Under the pieces are notes generated by a model. The model searched no databases and was not told the DNA's origin. It saw only the letters and a program-made list of their open reading frames with translations. Positions 10,081-50,049 of a stretch of DNA of 50,049 nt are shown here, piece by piece; positions within the stretch are counted from its first letter, which is position 1; each line of letters begins with the position of its first letter. A program made the position numbers and the translations under genes. The stretch covers positions 1-50,049 of the forward strand of contig JBBDIG010000005.1 in NCBI GenBank assembly GCA_040880525.1, read 5' to 3'. This DNA comes from Bacteroidia bacterium. GTDB lineage: Bacteria > Bacteroidota > Bacteroidia > CAILMK01 > JBBDIG01.

Positions 10081-11172
10081 TCATCCCACCACCTGGCGAT
10101 ATATTTCCAGCGTCTTATGGGCCGTCTGTTCTTTGGAAAACTGTTGCACCTTTTGGAGGGCTTGCCTGCGAATATTTTCGCGCAATGGCTTATCATTTAT
10201 GAGCCTTAATACCTGCGCTGCCAGCCCTTCATGGTCTTGCACCTCAGCCAGCAGGCCGGTTTGTTCATGCGCCACCAGCTCCGGAATGCCGCCAGCCCGC
10301 GTGCCAACCACCGGCACTCCGGCAGCAAAAGCATCCAGCACCGAAGTGCCCAATCCTTCTGTTTGGGACGTAACGAGGAAAATGTCCAGGCTCTGGAGTA
10401 GCTTTATCACGTCTTTCCGGAATCCTGTCATCACAACGTGATCCTGCAGTTGCTTTTCACGAATGTATGCCTCTAGCGGCTGGCGCTGTTCGCCTTCACC
10501 AATCATGAAGAACCGTGCATTCAATCCGCCCGCCACCAGCACTGCGATAGTATCAAGAAATGTAAAGTAGTCTTTATGCGGTGCAAGAGCCGCCACATTG
10601 CCGATAAGCAGATGATCGTCCGGCACGTTAAATTCTTTTCGCAGGAAATTTTCCTGTGGTGGGTTGGCAAACTTGTTCAGGTCAATTCCGGAATGCACAG
10701 TGACGAGCTTGCTTTGATCGCGAATGTCCTGCTTCATTATTTCTTTGATCGCATCGCTCACGCATATTATCTTGCGGAAGGCCCGGTGGTTATATTTTAG
10801 CCGGGAAATCCACGTTTGCTGTATTCTGAAATCCACTCTCCGGCTCACCACCACCGGGGTTTTATTTGCACTGAGGGCAGAGGCAAAGGCGAGGTTATGG
10901 GCATGCGCATCATGTACATGCACAAGATCGGCTGAGAGTCGCTGGCAAAGGCGCTTCAACCACCTGGCATACAGCAGGGGGTATATAGTCCGTTTTATGA
11001 CCGGCAGGCATTCGACCTGATTTGCATCACACCATTTTTCCATTTCACTTCCTTTGGCGGCCACAACCACTTGCAGGCAACCCTGCTTTATCAATTCCTG
11101 CACAAGGTAGGCTACCTGCTGCTCGCCACCCCGCCAGGTGCGGGCAAGTGCTATGTGAATAATGGTGTACAA
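10081..11172 (-). CDS. Family 4 glycosyltransferase
   Basis: A 363-residue GT-B-fold enzyme of glycosyltransferase family 4. The N-terminal domain has H-I-A-L-A-R-T-W-R-G-G-E-Q-Q, the glycine-rich acceptor-side loop. The middle has C-V-S-D-A-I-K and H-S-G-I-D-L-N-K-F. The donor domain has G-x-G-E-x-x-x-x and T-E-G-L-G-T-S-V-L-D-A-F-A-A-G-V-P-V-V. The EX7E motif is present with Asp in place of the second Glu, a known variation. It probably transfers a sugar in envelope glycan or LPS synthesis. The start is TTG at 11172, because no ATG lies upstream in frame and the Rossmann strand begins at once. Acceptor and donor are unknown. Confidence 0.85.
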   Translation of the reverse strand: MYTIIHIALARTWRGGEQQVAYLVQELIKQGCLQVVVAAKGSEMEKWCDANQVECLPVIKRTIYPLLYARWLKRLCQRLSADLVHVHDAHAHNLAFASALSANKTPVVVSRRVDFRIQQTWISRLKYNHRAFRKIICVSDAIKEIMKQDIRDQSKLVTVHSGIDLNKFANPPQENFLRKEFNVPDDHLLIGNVAALAPHKDYFTFLDTIAVLVAGGLNARFFMIGEGEQRQPLEAYIREKQLQDHVVMTGFRKDVIKLLQSLDIFLVTSQTEGLGTSVLDAFAAGVPVVGTRAGGIPELVAHEQTGLLAEVQDHEGLAAQVLRLINDKPLRENIRRQALQKVQQFSKEQTAHKTLEIYRQVVG

Positions 11173-45090: not shown

Positions 45091-45167
45091 GGCCTCATAG
45101 CTCAATTGGATAGAGCGTCAGATTCCGGTTCTGAAGGTTGGGGGTTCGAGTCCCTTTGAGGTCACCA
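45091..45167 (+). tRNA. tRNA-Arg (anticodon CCG)
   Basis: A complete 77-nt tRNA with encoded CCA. The acceptor stem pairs GGCCTCA with TGAGGTC, the D-arm is AGCTC...AGAGC, the anticodon stem is CAGA/TCTG, and the loop TTCCGGT places CCG at positions 34-36, reading the Arg codon CGG. The T-arm is GGGGTTCGAGTCCC. It lies just 28 bp after the rnpB terminator, and accessory genes begin on its 3' side. Confidence 0.96.
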
Positions 45168-45215: not shown

Positions 45216-45429
45216 GGTTTTTGAGGGACGGAATTCAGAGCAGCTGTTATTGGTAATAATGCATGTAGTGTCGATTGGGTGGCGTTGAAGGCACGGTTTG
45301 CAGATAAGAAACGTGGTGCTTTTCGAAGCCTTTTCCTGCCCAACTGTCAGAAACGTAGCCTCGAGAAACGAACCTTGAGGATCTTTTTTTCGCCCCAAAT
45401 CTTCTTAAGTGTTAATGGCAAACGTTTTA
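45216..45429. other. Gene-free spacer between tRNA-Arg and the accessory genes
   Basis: No reading frame here is believable. A CCTCGAG / CTTGAGG hairpin with a T-run at 45359-45390 is terminator-like on the plus strand, although no plus-strand gene precedes it apart from the tRNA. A small RNA in 45220-45390 is possible but not shown. Confidence 0.3.
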
Positions 45430-45987
45430 TTAGTCACACCTTTTTCTAAACTCATAATCAGGTCTTAATTTTTTTGGAATCACTTTATTTATCTTTTTAA
45501 TTAATGTGTCAAGTTGTTCTTCACAGAGATAGTATCTAATAAAATATGATTCAAAGTTATTATCAATAATCAGTATTCTGGTTCCTAAATCATGTGAAGA
45601 AATAAGACGCTCTTTTGTTAAGGTATCATCTTCAATTATTTGAATTTCACTTTCTTTATTCAGCGGTTCGAAGGACTTGTAATTAAATTCATTTAAAAAT
45701 TCTAATAAGTCACTAAAGTTTTTCCTATAGTCTTTTAAATCTGAACCTTCTAATTCTCTAAAATTAACGAGTTTGGATGTATGGTTAGAATTTCCCGATA
45801 AGTCTGTTTTTCTTAAAGTCAAACCATTAATGTCCATTTTCAATATATGAGTTCCATTTTTTGTCGGTCCAGTGAATACCTGAATTTCATGAAAGTTAAC
45901 GGTCAGCGATTGGGCACTGCATTTTTGTCCAAATGGCAATAGGCAACAAAAGGTCAAAAATATGTTTAAAAATATTATATAGCTCAT
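45430..45987 (-). CDS. Exported protein of unknown function
   Basis: A 185-residue protein with a signal peptide (1-25, ends C-S-A-Q). The mature part contains mixed strands and helices and ends in a basic stretch R-K-R-C-D. I recognise no domain. Codon use is AT-rich like the neighbouring minus-strand genes and unlike the core genes to the left. It is the last gene, in the direction of transcription, of the run that starts beyond the window's right edge. Confidence 0.7.
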   Translation of the reverse strand: MSYIIFLNIFLTFCCLLPFGQKCSAQSLTVNFHEIQVFTGPTKNGTHILKMDINGLTLRKTDLSGNSNHTSKLVNFRELEGSDLKDYRKNFSDLLEFLNEFNYKSFEPLNKESEIQIIEDDTLTKERLISSHDLGTRILIIDNNFESYFIRYYLCEEQLDTLIKKINKVIPKKLRPDYEFRKRCD

Positions 45988-46025
45988 CGTGAAAATTTTT
46001 ACATGTTTATCAATCGAATAATGTA

Positions 46026-46066
46026 TGCTGGCGCGCGCCTGTGGCGCGTGTCCTGATCTCGCTTAT
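46026..46066. repeat. Short palindromic intergenic element, copy 1
   Basis: The core GCGCGCGCCTGTGGCGCG lies on the 3' side of the minus-strand gene at 46079-46672. Aligned with 46732-46776 and 47733-47770 it shares TGCT...CG-CTGT...CG-GT-CCTGAT-TCGCTTA. It holds a perfect 10-bp palindrome GGCGCGCGCC. GC content is far above its surroundings. Confidence 0.6.
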
Positions 46067-46078
46067 ATACCCAGTATT

Positions 46079-46672
46079 TTATTCATTCTTCAGTATTATT
46101 TGTGTCGTAATTATTTCGTTTTGGTCTGTCAATATAGTTATAATGTATTGTCCTGCCGATATGTCGGAAAGAGAAATTACTTGCTTGTCAGTCGTGAGGG
46201 ATTTTACTATTTTTCCATTCAGGTCTGTTACAATAATTATCTTGTTACCGGCTAAAGGAATTGATATGCGGTCAATTGTCGGGTTAGGAAATATAAGAAC
46301 TTTGTCATCTGGTTTGTTATCTGAAATACCTGTAACAGAGCCACATTTGATGGCATATTTAACTATACTTTGGTTTGAGCCGATGTCAAGCCGAACGAAA
46401 TAAGCACCGTCATCTAAGCTGTCTCCAAGTAAATTTACGTTGTACGAGCCGCCTGGTAAAATTGTCGCCTGAAAAAAGGTTCTTACTGTTTCTCCAAAAC
46501 GATTAAATACACGTAAAGAAATTGTGTCAGGTTGAACAATATCAAAATGAATGGTAGTGGAATTTTTAAAAGGGTTGGGAAAAATACTTAAACTGTCTGT
46601 TGTTTGAGAAAATGTTGTCCCAAAGCAAAAGGTCAAAAAAATGACTAAAAGGTGTCGTATTAAAAATTTCAT
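46079..46672 (-). CDS. Secreted protein composed of two T9SS sorting-domain-like modules
   Basis: A 197-residue protein starting at ATG 46672. Residues 1-23 are a signal peptide (F-S-Q end). Residues about 28-107 (S-I-F-P-N-P-F-K-N ... L-D-D-G-A-Y-F-V-R-L) form one complete T9SS sorting-domain-like unit, and residues 123-197 (L-I-F-P-N-P-T-I-D ... I-S-A-G-Q-Y-I-I-T-I) form a second. No cargo domain lies between or before them. T9SS proteins normally carry one such domain after a large cargo. This may be a relic or a small adaptor; both modules look intact. Confidence 0.75.
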   Translation of the reverse strand: MKFLIRHLLVIFLTFCFGTTFSQTTDSLSIFPNPFKNSTTIHFDIVQPDTISLRVFNRFGETVRTFFQATILPGGSYNVNLLGDSLDDGAYFVRLDIGSNQSIVKYAIKCGSVTGISDNKPDDKVLIFPNPTIDRISIPLAGNKIIIVTDLNGKIVKSLTTDKQVISLSDISAGQYIITILTDQNEIITTQIILKNE

Positions 46673-46731
46673 TGTCGTCAATTGTCATTCATGCAAATAT
46701 AGGATAAAATATGGGCACGCAAGAGTGATTG

Positions 46732-46776
46732 TTGCTTGCACGGCTGTGTCGTGTATCCTGAACCGGATTCAGTTAT
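46732..46776. repeat. Short palindromic intergenic element, copy 2
   Basis: Diverged relative of 46026-46066: TTGCTTGCACGGCTGT, then TCGTGTATCCTGAA, then GGATTCAGTTATA. It overlaps the stop codon of the minus-strand gene at 46773-47678 (46773-46775), so it directly follows that gene's 3' end. Confidence 0.5.
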
Positions 46777-47678
46777 AATTTCACAACAAAGCTGATATAT
46801 GGCATGCCTACAATTAAAACTTCAGCAAGGTCGGCATTATTGATGAAAGCCAGGTCAACAGCCATCGTTTCGCTAAAGAATCTTATTCCGTATGAGAAAA
46901 CACCGTAGTAACTATCAATCGGAACGAACCAATTCTCAGTTACTAATGCTGTTTTTTTAGCTATTCGCGTCATTCCTGAAAAAGTAATAATTGGCCTTTC
47001 TGAAAATTCCTCCTCAAAAAATCCCCAGCCTAATCCGCCAGTTATATTGTGGTCTGTAGAACCGTATGTTCCAACTCCGTAACCAATCCCAAATCCCCTT
47101 CTCCTAAAAGAACCAAAAAGTGGAAGACTGGCATATAAAAGCCCACCACCGGCATGAAAGCTTTCCGTAACTTCAACACCAATCTTAGGTGTGATAAAAA
47201 ATATGGGTTCAAAACTACCGGCTGCAAGCGAGCCGAATGTAGAAATAAACTCCAACCCTCCACCTATGGATATATTATCTGTAATCCCCACATTGAAAGA
47301 GTTTATAGAAAGGTATGTATTCTGATAATACGCTTCCCCTTTTTTTAAATTAAAAGCTGATGGTGAGAATAAATATCTTGTTGCATTTGGATTGGGGAAC
47401 CAGTAACTCCCGTTTTTTAGATTTGATTCATCAATTTCATCTATTCTTTTTATTTTTAAAATCGGGATTTCAAGCTTAGGTATGGATGAGGTTCTCATTA
47501 CCATATTAATCGAATCTTTTAGTAGAATATTACCGAAAAATGCCGAGCCGTCATTCAGTTCTATTTTATATGTTTGCGTGGAGTCAAATGAATCGCTGAT
47601 ATTTGTATTTTGACCATATACATTACTTGAAGCGCAAACCAGTAAGCTGACGAAGAGTGCCTGAATTAATTTTTTCAT
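46773..47678 (-). CDS. Exported outer-membrane beta-barrel-like protein
   Basis: A 301-residue protein starting at ATG 47678, with a signal peptide (1-22, V-Y-G-Q). After a short N-terminal domain (about 30-75, I-E-L-N-D-G-S-A-F-F-G-N-I, which resembles a small RNA-chaperone-like beta fold) come alternating amphipathic strands (N-I-S-I-G-G-G-L-E-F, G-G-L-L-Y-A, F-G-I-G-Y-G-V-G-T-Y-G), ending I-S-F-V-V-K-L. A longer frame to 47792 has no signal peptide. It is probably an outer-membrane protein of unknown role. Confidence 0.7.
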   Translation of the reverse strand: MKKLIQALFVSLLVCASSNVYGQNTNISDSFDSTQTYKIELNDGSAFFGNILLKDSINMVMRTSSIPKLEIPILKIKRIDEIDESNLKNGSYWFPNPNATRYLFSPSAFNLKKGEAYYQNTYLSINSFNVGITDNISIGGGLEFISTFGSLAAGSFEPIFFITPKIGVEVTESFHAGGGLLYASLPLFGSFRRRGFGIGYGVGTYGSTDHNITGGLGWGFFEEEFSERPIITFSGMTRIAKKTALVTENWFVPIDSYYGVFSYGIRFFSETMAVDLAFINNADLAEVLIVGMPYISFVVKL

Positions 47679-47732
47679 TTTTTCGTGTTTATAAATTAAA
47701 GATAATCGGTTCTTGCAAGGGTATTTCACCAT

Positions 47733-47770
47733 TGCTGCTACGCCTGTCTCGCGCGTTCTGATTCGCTTAA
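47733..47770. repeat. Short palindromic intergenic element, copy 3
   Basis: TGCTGCTACGCCTGTCTCG followed by CGCGTTCTGATTCGCTTAA. It matches copies at 46026 and 46732 and lies 65 bp beyond the 3' end of the small gene at 47835-47999, between it and the barrel-protein gene. The copy on the minus strand starts GTTAAGCGAATCAGAACGCG. Confidence 0.6.
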
Positions 47771-47834
47771 CTTGATAAATGATCAATATCAAAATTAAGC
47801 AGTAAAAGCTGAAATAAAAGTTTTTACATACCTA

Positions 47835-47999
47835 TTAAGAATTACATTCCTTTATCAAAGCTCTTAATCTTACTGGGTTGCCACCTGTAGGATAGCCTAA
47901 TGCTTGCGTTAATCTTCTTGCTCCGATGGCTGTTGCCCTACCTTGCCTTAAAGCAGTTAGAAGTCTTTGTCTATCTTGTTGACTAAAACTATTCGGCAT
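47835..47999 (-). CDS. Small basic protein overlapping the methyltransferase gene
   Basis: A 54-residue protein from ATG 47999, overlapping the end of the methyltransferase gene by 11 bp. The sequence is helical and basic: Q-Q-D-R-Q-R-L-L-T-A-L-R-Q-G-R-A-T-A, then R-R-L-T-Q-A-L-G-Y-P-T-G-G-N-P-V-R-L-R-A-L. It looks like a small winged-helix-like DNA-binding or specificity module. It could be the head of a truncated restriction endonuclease or a true small partner. Function unknown. Confidence 0.55.
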   Translation of the reverse strand: MPNSFSQQDRQRLLTALRQGRATAIGARRLTQALGYPTGGNPVRLRALIKECNS

Positions 48000-49287
48000 C
48001 TGATTGTTTTGAAAGATTAATGAACTTTTCTTTGTATTTGAATTCTTGTAATTGGTCAGGTTCAGCAAAACCTTCTTTAATAAGATGGGCATTCAAAAAG
48101 GTTTTGTTCTTCAAATACAGATAGCACAATAGATTATTTTCATCATCATACTTCTGATTATCGAACTTCATAAAAACCTTTTGCCCCTTCGTTTTATCGT
48201 AAAGAAATTGTTTTGCTGAACCATTCGAAATATCCTTCTCTTTAACGCCAATTAGTCTTACAACGAGGTCATTGTTTAGCTTTACAAGCTCAGGGCTAAT
48301 AATTTCTTTTACAGAATAATATTCTTCCCTTTTACTCCCATTCTTGTCGATTTTTGAGCCAAATTGCAACTTTTTAGGATCAACCTTTTTATCAAATTTT
48401 TGAAAATCCACAAAACGATAAGGCAAATTTTGAAACTCATTTTCGATATCTAAATCAATGGAATCGTTTAGGAATTCATAAGATGTATCCGAAATATTAT
48501 CGGCCTTGTTAATATTCAATTTGTCCTTTGCTATTTCAATGAATTCGGGATTTACTTCATAGCCAATAGAGTTCCGTTCCAAATTTCTTGCAGCCAATGA
48601 GGTTGTTCCACTTCCCATAAATGGATCTAAAACGGTTTCCCCTTTGAAAGCAAACATTTTTATAAGTCGTTTGGGTAGTTCTTCAGGGAATATAGCTATA
48701 TGACTGTCCTGTCTTGCTCCCCCAAAATTCCAATGACCCGCAAAATATTCTTTCCATTCCTCCGTGGTCATTTTTGATTGTTCTTTTATTTCCTTAGTTA
48801 CTTTAGCTGTCGGTTTTCCAAGTTTTTTAAAAATTAGAATAAACTCGTAATCAATTGAAAGAATACCATTTCTTGGTGTTGGAAAACTACCCATCAATGA
48901 AGCGCCTCCAGTCGTGTTTGTAGTAGTCTGTTTTTGCCAAATAATGGCTCCCATATAGTCAAATCCGATGCTTTCACAGAATTTGATTATTTCAGTCCTG
49001 ATGGGGATTACTTTATATCGACCATAGTAAACGGCCCTGGCAAATTGGTCTCCGATATTTACACACAACCTGCATCCATTATCAAGAACCCGATAACACT
49101 CTTTCCAAACAAGATTTAAGTTGTTGATATAGGTTTCATAGTCCTCATGATACCCTATTTGATTCTCTGTTCCGTAGTCCTTCAATTGCCAATATGGTGG
49201 TGAAGTAATTACTAAATTAACCGAGTTGTCTTCAATGAGATTCATCTGTCGGCTGTCACCATTTACTATTTTATGTATTGTATTCAA
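47989..49287 (-). CDS. DNA methyltransferase fused to an SNase-like domain
   Basis: A 432-residue fusion. Residues 1-260 are a beta-class DNA methyltransferase, with the catalytic motif T-S-P-P-Y-W (28-33) ahead of the AdoMet motif D-P-F-M-G-S-G-T-T (221-229); the order and S-P-P-Y fit N4-cytosine or N6-adenine enzymes. Residues about 338-425 match staphylococcal-nuclease-type domains: V-V-R-L-I-G-V, G-S-A-K-Q-F-L, G-Q-K-V-F-M-K-F-D, L-L-C-Y-L-Y-L, L-I-K-E-G-F-A. By that alignment the first catalytic Arg is kept (344) but the second Arg is Asn (385) and the Glu is Asp, so nuclease activity is doubtful. Start is TTG 49287, since the next ATG would cut the first strand. A 54-residue gene overlaps its end. 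Confidence 0.8.
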   Translation of the reverse strand: MNTIHKIVNGDSRQMNLIEDNSVNLVITSPPYWQLKDYGTENQIGYHEDYETYINNLNLVWKECYRVLDNGCRLCVNIGDQFARAVYYGRYKVIPIRTEIIKFCESIGFDYMGAIIWQKQTTTNTTGGASLMGSFPTPRNGILSIDYEFILIFKKLGKPTAKVTKEIKEQSKMTTEEWKEYFAGHWNFGGARQDSHIAIFPEELPKRLIKMFAFKGETVLDPFMGSGTTSLAARNLERNSIGYEVNPEFIEIAKDKLNINKADNISDTSYEFLNDSIDLDIENEFQNLPYRFVDFQKFDKKVDPKKLQFGSKIDKNGSKREEYYSVKEIISPELVKLNNDLVVRLIGVKEKDISNGSAKQFLYDKTKGQKVFMKFDNQKYDDENNLLCYLYLKNKTFLNAHLIKEGFAEPDQLQEFKYKEKFINLSKQSDAE

Positions 49288-49517
49288 TTGTCTACGTTTT
49301 TGTTTGCAAAGTTAGCCATTATATAAGGTAGTTCCGTCTGATTTTTCGGGTTTTCTTAGCCTTTGTTGGGGCATCGTGCTTTTCATTCTTTTTGTTTTTT
49401 TCAACATTGACAACCGATTAAAATATTCTTAATTGTCCATCTGATTTAGAGTCATCGTCTTTCTTTTTAGTCGCGCGTGGGGCATTTTTGAAAATTTCTC
49501 TTTCCAGGATGGGCAGG

Positions 49518-49575
49518 CACACTCTTTGGCTGGCTTTGGTTTGCGGGAGGCTTTGAGCGGCCAGCCATTGTGTGT
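49518..49575. repeat. Palindromic element at the 3' side of the edge gene
   Basis: CACAC-4 nt-TGGCTGGC, a 25-nt centre, then GCCAGCCA-2 nt-GTGTG. These nested arms make an imperfect 58-bp palindrome. It lies 16 bp past the 3' end of the minus-strand gene at 49591 and is rich in G and C, unlike the AT-rich spacer (49288-49590) around it, in which I see no gene. Its position on the 3' side matches the three elements at 46.0-47.8 kb, but its sequence is different. Confidence 0.65.
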
Positions 49576-49590
49576 TACTGCTGCGTTGGC

Positions 49591-50049
49591 CTAATCTTTA
49601 AATCCATATTTTTGTACTTTTTTTAAGTTTAGCCCGGCTATATATAAATTTCTACTGGTCATACCTTTTTTACCGTCAGCAAGGTCTGACATGAAACGAT
49701 ATTCATAGGGCTTAAGTCGTTTATTACGTTTATCCCATTGAACTACTTTCTTAACAAGGTCAATCGTAATTTCTTCTGCTTCCTGTTTTTTGTTTTCATC
49801 TTCATCAAAAAATTCTTCCATGTCAAAGAATAGTTCCGGGTTTTCATTCGCCACGACATTTAGAATTTCTTCTCCCTGCTTTCTTTCAATATCCGAAATG
49901 ACTCTGTTTGATCTAATACGATTTCCTAAAGTGTTTGCCATATCGATCTGGTAGTGCGAAACTTTTGAAGTTTCCCTGCCCCAGTTTTCTATCTTCTTCC
50001 AGGTTTTTGGATGAATTGATTTAATGCGTTCAAGGGAAGCGTCAATTTC
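49591..50049 (-). CDS. C-terminal part of a gene cut by the window edge
   Basis: An open minus-strand frame runs off the right edge; 152 residues are visible. An ATG at 49941 is internal, because the frame stays open upstream with protein-like sequence (L-E-R-I-K-S-I-H-P-K-T-W-K-K-I-E-N-W). It is helical, charged and acidic in the middle (F-D-M-E-E-F-F-D-E-D-E), and ends L-K-K-V-Q-K-Y-G-F-K-D. I do not recognise the family from this part. Next to a DNA methyltransferase it may be an abortive-infection or restriction partner, which is a guess from context. Confidence 0.65.
   Translation of the reverse strand, partial: EIDASLERIKSIHPKTWKKIENWGRETSKVSHYQIDMANTLGNRIRSNRVISDIERKQGEEILNVVANENPELFFDMEEFFDEDENKKQEAEEITIDLVKKVVQWDKRNKRLKPYEYRFMSDLADGKKGMTSRNLYIAGLNLKKVQKYGFKD

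Follow-up and report, generated by a model that had tools for sequence, protein, structure and literature searches.

Remnants of a probable integron-like cassette array beside a tRNA gene in a Bacteroidia genome

Short palindromes lie behind the genes at one end of a Bacteroidia contig. Do they mark a system of mobile gene cassettes and, if so, which of them are its recombination sites? The window, i.e., the whole stretch of DNA analysed, is contig C5 in its entirety (50049 bp), one of 60 that make up a 3.8-Mb genome. From 45 kb onward its GC content is 0.34-0.38, as compared with 0.40-0.51 in the rest. The last feature before this low-GC cassette region is a tRNA-Arg (CCG) gene on the plus strand (45091-45167; ARAGORN, Rfam). 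The genes beyond it are all encoded on the minus strand: G5 (45430-45987; 185 aa, no Pfam match), G4 (46079-46672) with a type IX secretion C-terminal sorting domain (PF18962, E 1.7e-17), G3 (46773-47681; 302 aa, no Pfam match), G2 (47989-49287), a type II DNA methyltransferase with an SNase-like C-terminal part (PF01555, E 1e-45; PF00565, E 6.5e-7; PDLC03259, E 8.2e-170), and G1 (49594-50049), which is cut by the contig end and shares 64% identity with the final part of a 775-aa protein from locus L121. An 85-aa open reading frame (47835-48092, minus strand) overlaps the 3' end of G2 out of frame. The original prediction had placed palindromes at 46026, 46732, 47733 and 49518, and there they are. 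It had also stressed that most of the minus-strand genes have one on their 3' side. This is true for four of the five genes; since all of them run the same way, however, every gap is 3' of a gene.

A gene-plus-palindrome plan had been seen a second time, at the left end of the window. This parallel does not survive, as the left-end repeat belongs to a different family, unrelated to the cassettes. It measures 47 bp and occurs on the plus strand at 65-111 and 916-962. A model made from both of these and from the copies on either side of a Y1 (RAYT) transposase pseudogene at C19:54607 detects 41 copies in the genome at E<=0.001, four of which are the training sequences. Because of its many dispersed copies and those flanking the Y1 transposase, the repeat is an ordinary REP of a RAYT. 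It resembles what the sections of PMC6006769 dealing with subclass 2.6 transposases of Bacteroidetes describe, namely transposases flanked by atypical structures with copies elsewhere; the likeness lies in a multi-copy palindrome flanking a Y1 transposase. The genome has eight Y1 genes, and several of them (L011 = C48:51222-52052, L013, L016; one a tandem duplicate) each have a flanking palindrome type of their own. The genome thus contains several REP families. All this could invite the view that every palindrome discussed here is a RAYT-mobilised or stray hairpin, and that the genes are simple genes of a low-GC island and no cassettes at all.

The three short hairpins fit that view in part. 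Hairpin a (46026-46057) reads GGAC-A-CGCGCC-ACA-GGCGCG on the minus strand; b (46733-46762) and c (47724-47769), also on the minus strand, are diverged copies of it, b by alignment and covariance model, c by alignment alone and with a poor fold. To judge homology, each element was aligned locally with tiles of 110 bp that cover the window in full on both strands. Among non-self matches, 46026 has its best in 47733 (score 33), followed by 46732 (24), while unrelated tiles reach at most 23, and 46026 is in turn the best non-self match of each of the other two. The pair 46732-47733 taken alone is unremarkable (18). When 46732 and 47733 are kept out of the training, a covariance model ranks 46732 second in the window (E 0.022) and does not recover 47733 there. 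In a shuffled window, an exact match to the 20-mer core of hairpin a is expected 0.00 times. The fold of 46026 is clear (z -3.2 on the plus strand, -1.7 on the minus strand); those of 46732 (z -1.1) and 47733 (z +0.6) are poor, and that of 49505-49575 is good (z -2.4). Element c lies about 67 bp beyond the stop of the 85-aa reading frame.

Elsewhere in the genome such hairpins keep no company with cassettes. A model trained on a and three further copies, d (C55:1201), f (C55:6075) and e (C9:30330), finds these four strongly, then three weak candidates, then b. Copy d sits inside a long gap away from gene ends and f between convergent genes; the neighbour of e is a gene of opposite relative strand. 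Among 295 genomes of the class that were searched, the window's own is the only one with the 18-mer core of a, up to one mismatch being allowed. The attC-like model R3, introduced below, gives nothing above 7 bits at 46026, 46732 and 47733, i.e., no AAC/GTT boxes and no attC arms. As their other copies lie away from cassettes and are tied neither to gene 3' ends nor to attC, hairpins a, b and c look like private REP-like insertions, not recombination sites. They share with the REPs of RAYT (TnpA-REP) transposases the short hairpin preceded by GGAC, but they differ in having few copies and a tetranucleotide other than GTAG or GGAG. Moreover, no Y1 gene flanked by a hairpin of this type was found when the flanks of the eight Y1 matches in the genome were scanned or read, which also speaks against mobilisation of all palindromes by RAYTs. 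The advice to collect all copies and to look for a shared fold thus led to few copies of the a type and to 41 of the left-end repeat. The caveat of simple REP elements, which the original prediction had itself named, applies to the left-end repeat and to the REP-like 46026, 46732 and 47733, but not to 49518.

The palindrome at 49518 had rightly been set apart as another type. It belongs to a widespread family of hairpins of about 80 bp, here called hairpin II, and spans 49510-49590 on the minus strand, directly 3' of the G1 stop codon. In a similarity search of 60 relatives, 5 besides the window's genome gave matches, four of them to this palindrome. A 21-base pattern run against a species collection yielded 96 stretches, mostly from Bacteroidota and from many families, with Cyclobacterium and Algoriphagus among the genera; such named matches, together with the type IX sorting domain of G4, point to class Bacteroidia for the window's genome. 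Of the stretches, 80 were fetched, and three (L125, L164, L173) were dropped before the counts as chance pattern matches whose second arm is absent. The alignment (A8) takes in 66 of 77 hairpins. The copies keep both arms and show compensatory changes in two inner pairs (A-U 52 / U-A 11 and A-U 49 / G-C 13). When loci are compared pairwise, similarity stops sharply at the border of the gene. Directly in front of hairpin II an open reading frame of at least 60 aa ends in 64 of 79 copies, versus 70 of 395 random points. Among these genes (58 of the 64 were scanned, set A7), type III and type I restriction, SWI2/SNF2, AIPR and similar defence families are frequent. Integrons are known as stores of anti-phage genes.

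What follows hairpin II is more telling. The hairpin is preceded by the stop codon of a cassette gene, and an attC-like site of about 130 bp comes after it. Such a site lies within 300 bp downstream on the same strand in 53 of 78 copies, or in 44 of the 59 with enough sequence; near the remaining 25 of 78 (15 of 59) R3 detects none. The strands of site and hairpin II agree in 86 of 86 pairs. Stray or RAYT-mobilised hairpins leave this association unexplained, as they do the arrays at recombinase genes described below. For 49518 an origin of this kind is refuted, and as an account of the whole locus we consider it very improbable. The idea that hairpin II marks cassette genes of reversed orientation was dropped: the gene is on the same strand in 45 of 53 cases with the hairpin and in 18 of 22 without it (p 0.74). 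Since gene strand is the same with and without hairpin II, the order is gene, hairpin II, site. An intrinsic terminator finds no support, as no T run follows the hairpin. Within the open-licence literature, no paper was found on its core letters or on any such hairpin.

Hairpin II could alternatively be a second attC-like site, catalytically changed, which acts as a decoy or regulator of the recombinase and not as a 3' structure of the mRNA. It does open with a site-like box, TGCCAAC, right after the stop codon, and it comprises an outer stem, an internal loop and an inner stem with covarying pairs. Yet it has no closing GTT box, and its stems are devoid of an AAC/GTT pair, so we regard this as quite unlikely. 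Hairpin II is an accessory, optional hairpin inside cassettes, beside the real site, and it would serve the mRNA 3' end or the folding of the cassette. Long stretches that contain it recur in distant records. In L143, L145 and L183, labelled Aureibaculum, a Chloroflexi MAG and Cyclobacterium, respectively, a 5.4-kb stretch is about 94% identical, which suggests either recent transfer or contamination of a MAG; in L183 the attC bodies are different. Similarly, 2.9 kb with hairpin II and site are 99.7% identical in L150 (Cyclobacterium plantarum) and L161 (Membranihabitans maritimus).

Integron sites carry boxes of the type RYYYAAC/GTTRRRY. The element that lies 48-170 bp past hairpin II has AAC...GTT boxes as well; it is palindromic and about 130 bp long, with two pairing arms. 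It scores at least 14 in 30 of 77 loci, while shuffles (one per sequence) reach 13 at most. Model R3 was built from 33 sites (A6; 33 of 38 candidates, five longer or duplicate rows being left out). In this training set 96.7% of the cells are paired, 17 of 23 pairs are changed on both sides, and covariation is 0.596 versus 0.04-0.12 with the structure slid, but the boxes and the pairing of the arms had been the selection criteria, so that the measured pairing is in part built in. Tests independent of the training set therefore matter. One comes from 33 sites near recombinases: 27 of them abut the stop codon of an open reading frame (-6 to +54 nt), in contrast to 68 of 330 random points. Many genes without hairpin II, too, end at the attC-like site itself. 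R3 finds 85 sites at E<=0.01 in the 80 hairpin II loci and, at E<=1e-4, 13 sites in the window's genome, 7 of which lie some 1.5 kb or less from where a contig ends. At the latter threshold 93 of 119 genomes of the class have a match. In related genomes, then, the canonical attC features are seen: AAC/GTT boxes, covarying arms and a position at gene 3' ends.

Some other observations were made around these sites. L163, a chimera of two relatives, was considered as a case of site-specific exchange; its switch point lies in the spacer and not at the box, and it was not used. Near some sites a group II intron was suspected by eye; for 9 loci Rfam returned nothing at gathering score. A stretch GAGTAGACGGCCGG...GCGCCTCTCACACCA is common to L032:13200, L178 and L184, where it lies beside sites or integrase fragments; it, too, has no Rfam match at gathering score.

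What remains of such an array inside the window? Read along the gene strand, G1 is followed by its stop codon, hairpin II, a spacer, CCCCAACA, a site that is cut off, and then G2. This truncated attC-like site (49350-49371, minus strand) consists of the box CCCCAAC at 49371-49365 and a short first arm; its second arm was not found. L121, a MAG record labelled Tissierellia, has the same gene end, hairpin II, spacer and box, followed by an intact site, and its identity to the G1 side breaks off right after CCCCAACA. Hairpin II and spacer are visibly more alike between the two than are the coding ends. At the other border, beside the tRNA gene, there is a decayed site at 45289-45420 (gene strand minus, model strand plus; R3 20.2 bits). 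With an E value of 0.00096 in 5.15 kb and of 0.7 genome-wide it is weak on score alone; we take it as a site because its strand fits and because it abuts the G5 stop codon at a distance of 9 bp. Between G2, G3, G4 and G5, R3 found no attC-like site, so these genes are candidate cassettes only. One decayed and one truncated site, no intact one and no recombinase are thus what the window holds. The stretch 45289-50049 is probably what erosion has left of the end of an integron-like cassette array next to the tRNA-Arg gene, a reading drawn from sequence comparison.

Intact arrays have to be sought in relatives. Thirty genomes were surveyed for recombinases: 20 rich in sites (10-28 each) and 10 of the 26 without an R3 match. 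The integron integrase model TIGR02249 was above its cut-off in none of the 30, nor in the window's genome, in line with the earlier remark that no integrase was visible. A recombinase above Xer level, in contrast, is present in 16 of the 20 site-rich and in 1 of the 10 site-free genomes (Fisher p 4e-4), the level being a best E of <=1e-24 that was chosen after the table had been seen. The exceptions are four site-rich genomes without a recombinase at this level and G094, which has a recombinase and no sites. Ten regions were fetched around the recombinase gene. Eight of them hold sites, 33 in all and on a single strand per region (8 of 8), and thus represent one-orientation cassette arrays beside the recombinase; in L305 and L306 no sites were found near it. 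In the window's genome there are recombinase fragments only, beside attC-like sites (C6, C45). The search for a recombinase gene that the original prediction had called for accordingly failed at home and succeeded in site-rich relatives, where a tyrosine recombinase turned up.

All 18 aligned recombinases (A9) have the Pfam Phage_integrase and SAM-like domains and an N-terminal region without Pfam match. A HARP-like nature of this region was considered and rejected, as Pfam HARP matches 1 of the 18 members with a non-significant E of 0.072. In L267 and L271, with recombinases of 547 and 646 aa, an N-terminal 'WSxxxKxWYV' region is repeated. The A9 proteins score highest for NF040815 and TIGR02249, and the member shown falls under both cut-offs. 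A predicted structure of the recombinase (pLDDT 84, pTM 0.53) has as its best fold match 2A3V, the IntIA of Vibrio cholerae, followed by XerA. Core-binding and catalytic parts align (residues 6-183 and 243-320 of 2A3V), but the 59 residues 184-242 of IntI are replaced by 16. The recombinase thus lacks the IntI-specific insertion (I2, or additional domain). In the pages of PMC7790495 that treat it, the I2 helix is presented as the innovation by which integron integrases gained single-strand recombination.

The likeness to chromosomal integrons and CALINs is evident: genes are each followed by an imperfect AAC...GTT palindrome, arrays run on one strand, a tyrosine recombinase gene adjoins the intact ones, and defence genes are among the cargo. 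The differences are the recombinase, which is without the insertion, below the IntI cut-off and endowed with an extra N-terminal region, and the additional hairpin between gene and site. One might still see ordinary attC clusters here, left behind by, or shared with, a lost or distant IntI, with the I2-less recombinase a mere bystander. CALINs are defined in the relevant section of PMC9024848 as at least two attC sites without integrase, and its authors, those of IntegronFinder 2.0, there read such clusters as degraded integrons; that only integrase fragments are found in the window's genome would agree. Against this stand the complete lack of IntI above cut-off in the surveyed genomes, although 20 of them are so rich in sites, and the fact that another recombinase tracks the sites and adjoins the arrays. 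We deem canonical integrons an unlikely explanation, if less so than either of the alternatives weighed above. The cassette system with its own recombinase, judged from the sequences, appears to function in the manner of an integron, and it is kept apart from the canonical ones because the feature of an IntI integrase was looked for and not found. The proposal of a mobile-cassette system unlike known integrons is thereby upheld as far as the array remnant and the different recombinase are concerned; the palindromes that it had named are not the recombination sites.

A hint at the insertion point comes from contig C6 of the window's genome, where three attC-like sites occur together with integrase C-terminal fragments. 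Behind each of three integrase C-terminal ends there, a stretch of about 110 bp is nearly identical. Copies 1 and 2 are alike up to AAACTYGTTA and part after it; in the alignment, copy 3 drops out about 18 bp sooner, at GTGGATATAAAC, its next letters by eye being TCGTTGTGC. A similar ATAAACAAGTTAT is seen 3' of the recombinase in L281 and L272. The break point suggests a possible crossover at GTT. On the same contig (L032:10170-17000), two repeats of about 390 bp, 94% identical and containing integrase C-terminal ends with attI-like sequence behind them, lie among cassette genes, with a third partial copy at 10176; they look like captured or duplicated integrase-attI ends.

How such a system might operate can be sketched. 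A cassette consists of a gene, an optional hairpin II and the attC-like site of about 130 bp with its paired AAC ... GTT arms. The recombinase, which presumably acts on attC-like sites, would join the folded site of a cassette to the attI-like site beside its own gene, with a crossover at G/TT, and genes would enter and leave the array as units. In the window, the sites are decayed or truncated.

Whether the Bacteroidia as a class harbour a widespread integron-like cassette system of this kind, run by an I2-less recombinase whose N-terminal region may replace I2, and with the hairpin as a mark of large defence cassettes, appears to us evenly balanced. Such a system could have been overlooked because its recombinase is without the insertion thought to be needed for folded single-stranded attC. 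As far as the survey part of PMC9024848 (IntegronFinder 2.0, 2022) goes, Bacteroidetes proper had a single complete integron, in Salinibacter, and the 11 taxa listed for the attC models of Ghaly 2021 in PMC8352920 do not include Bacteroidetes. If the reading is true, a cassette system in most genomes of the class would question both the requirement for I2 and the survey result of a single integron, and, with its covarying sites arrayed next to a recombinase devoid of I2, it would offer a direct test of the purpose of I2. Joined as it is to unrelated genes immediately ahead of attC, the hairpin is also relevant to the origin of cassettes. Finally, since the cassettes carry many anti-phage genes, the system would constitute a large, hardly surveyed store of mobile anti-phage defence.
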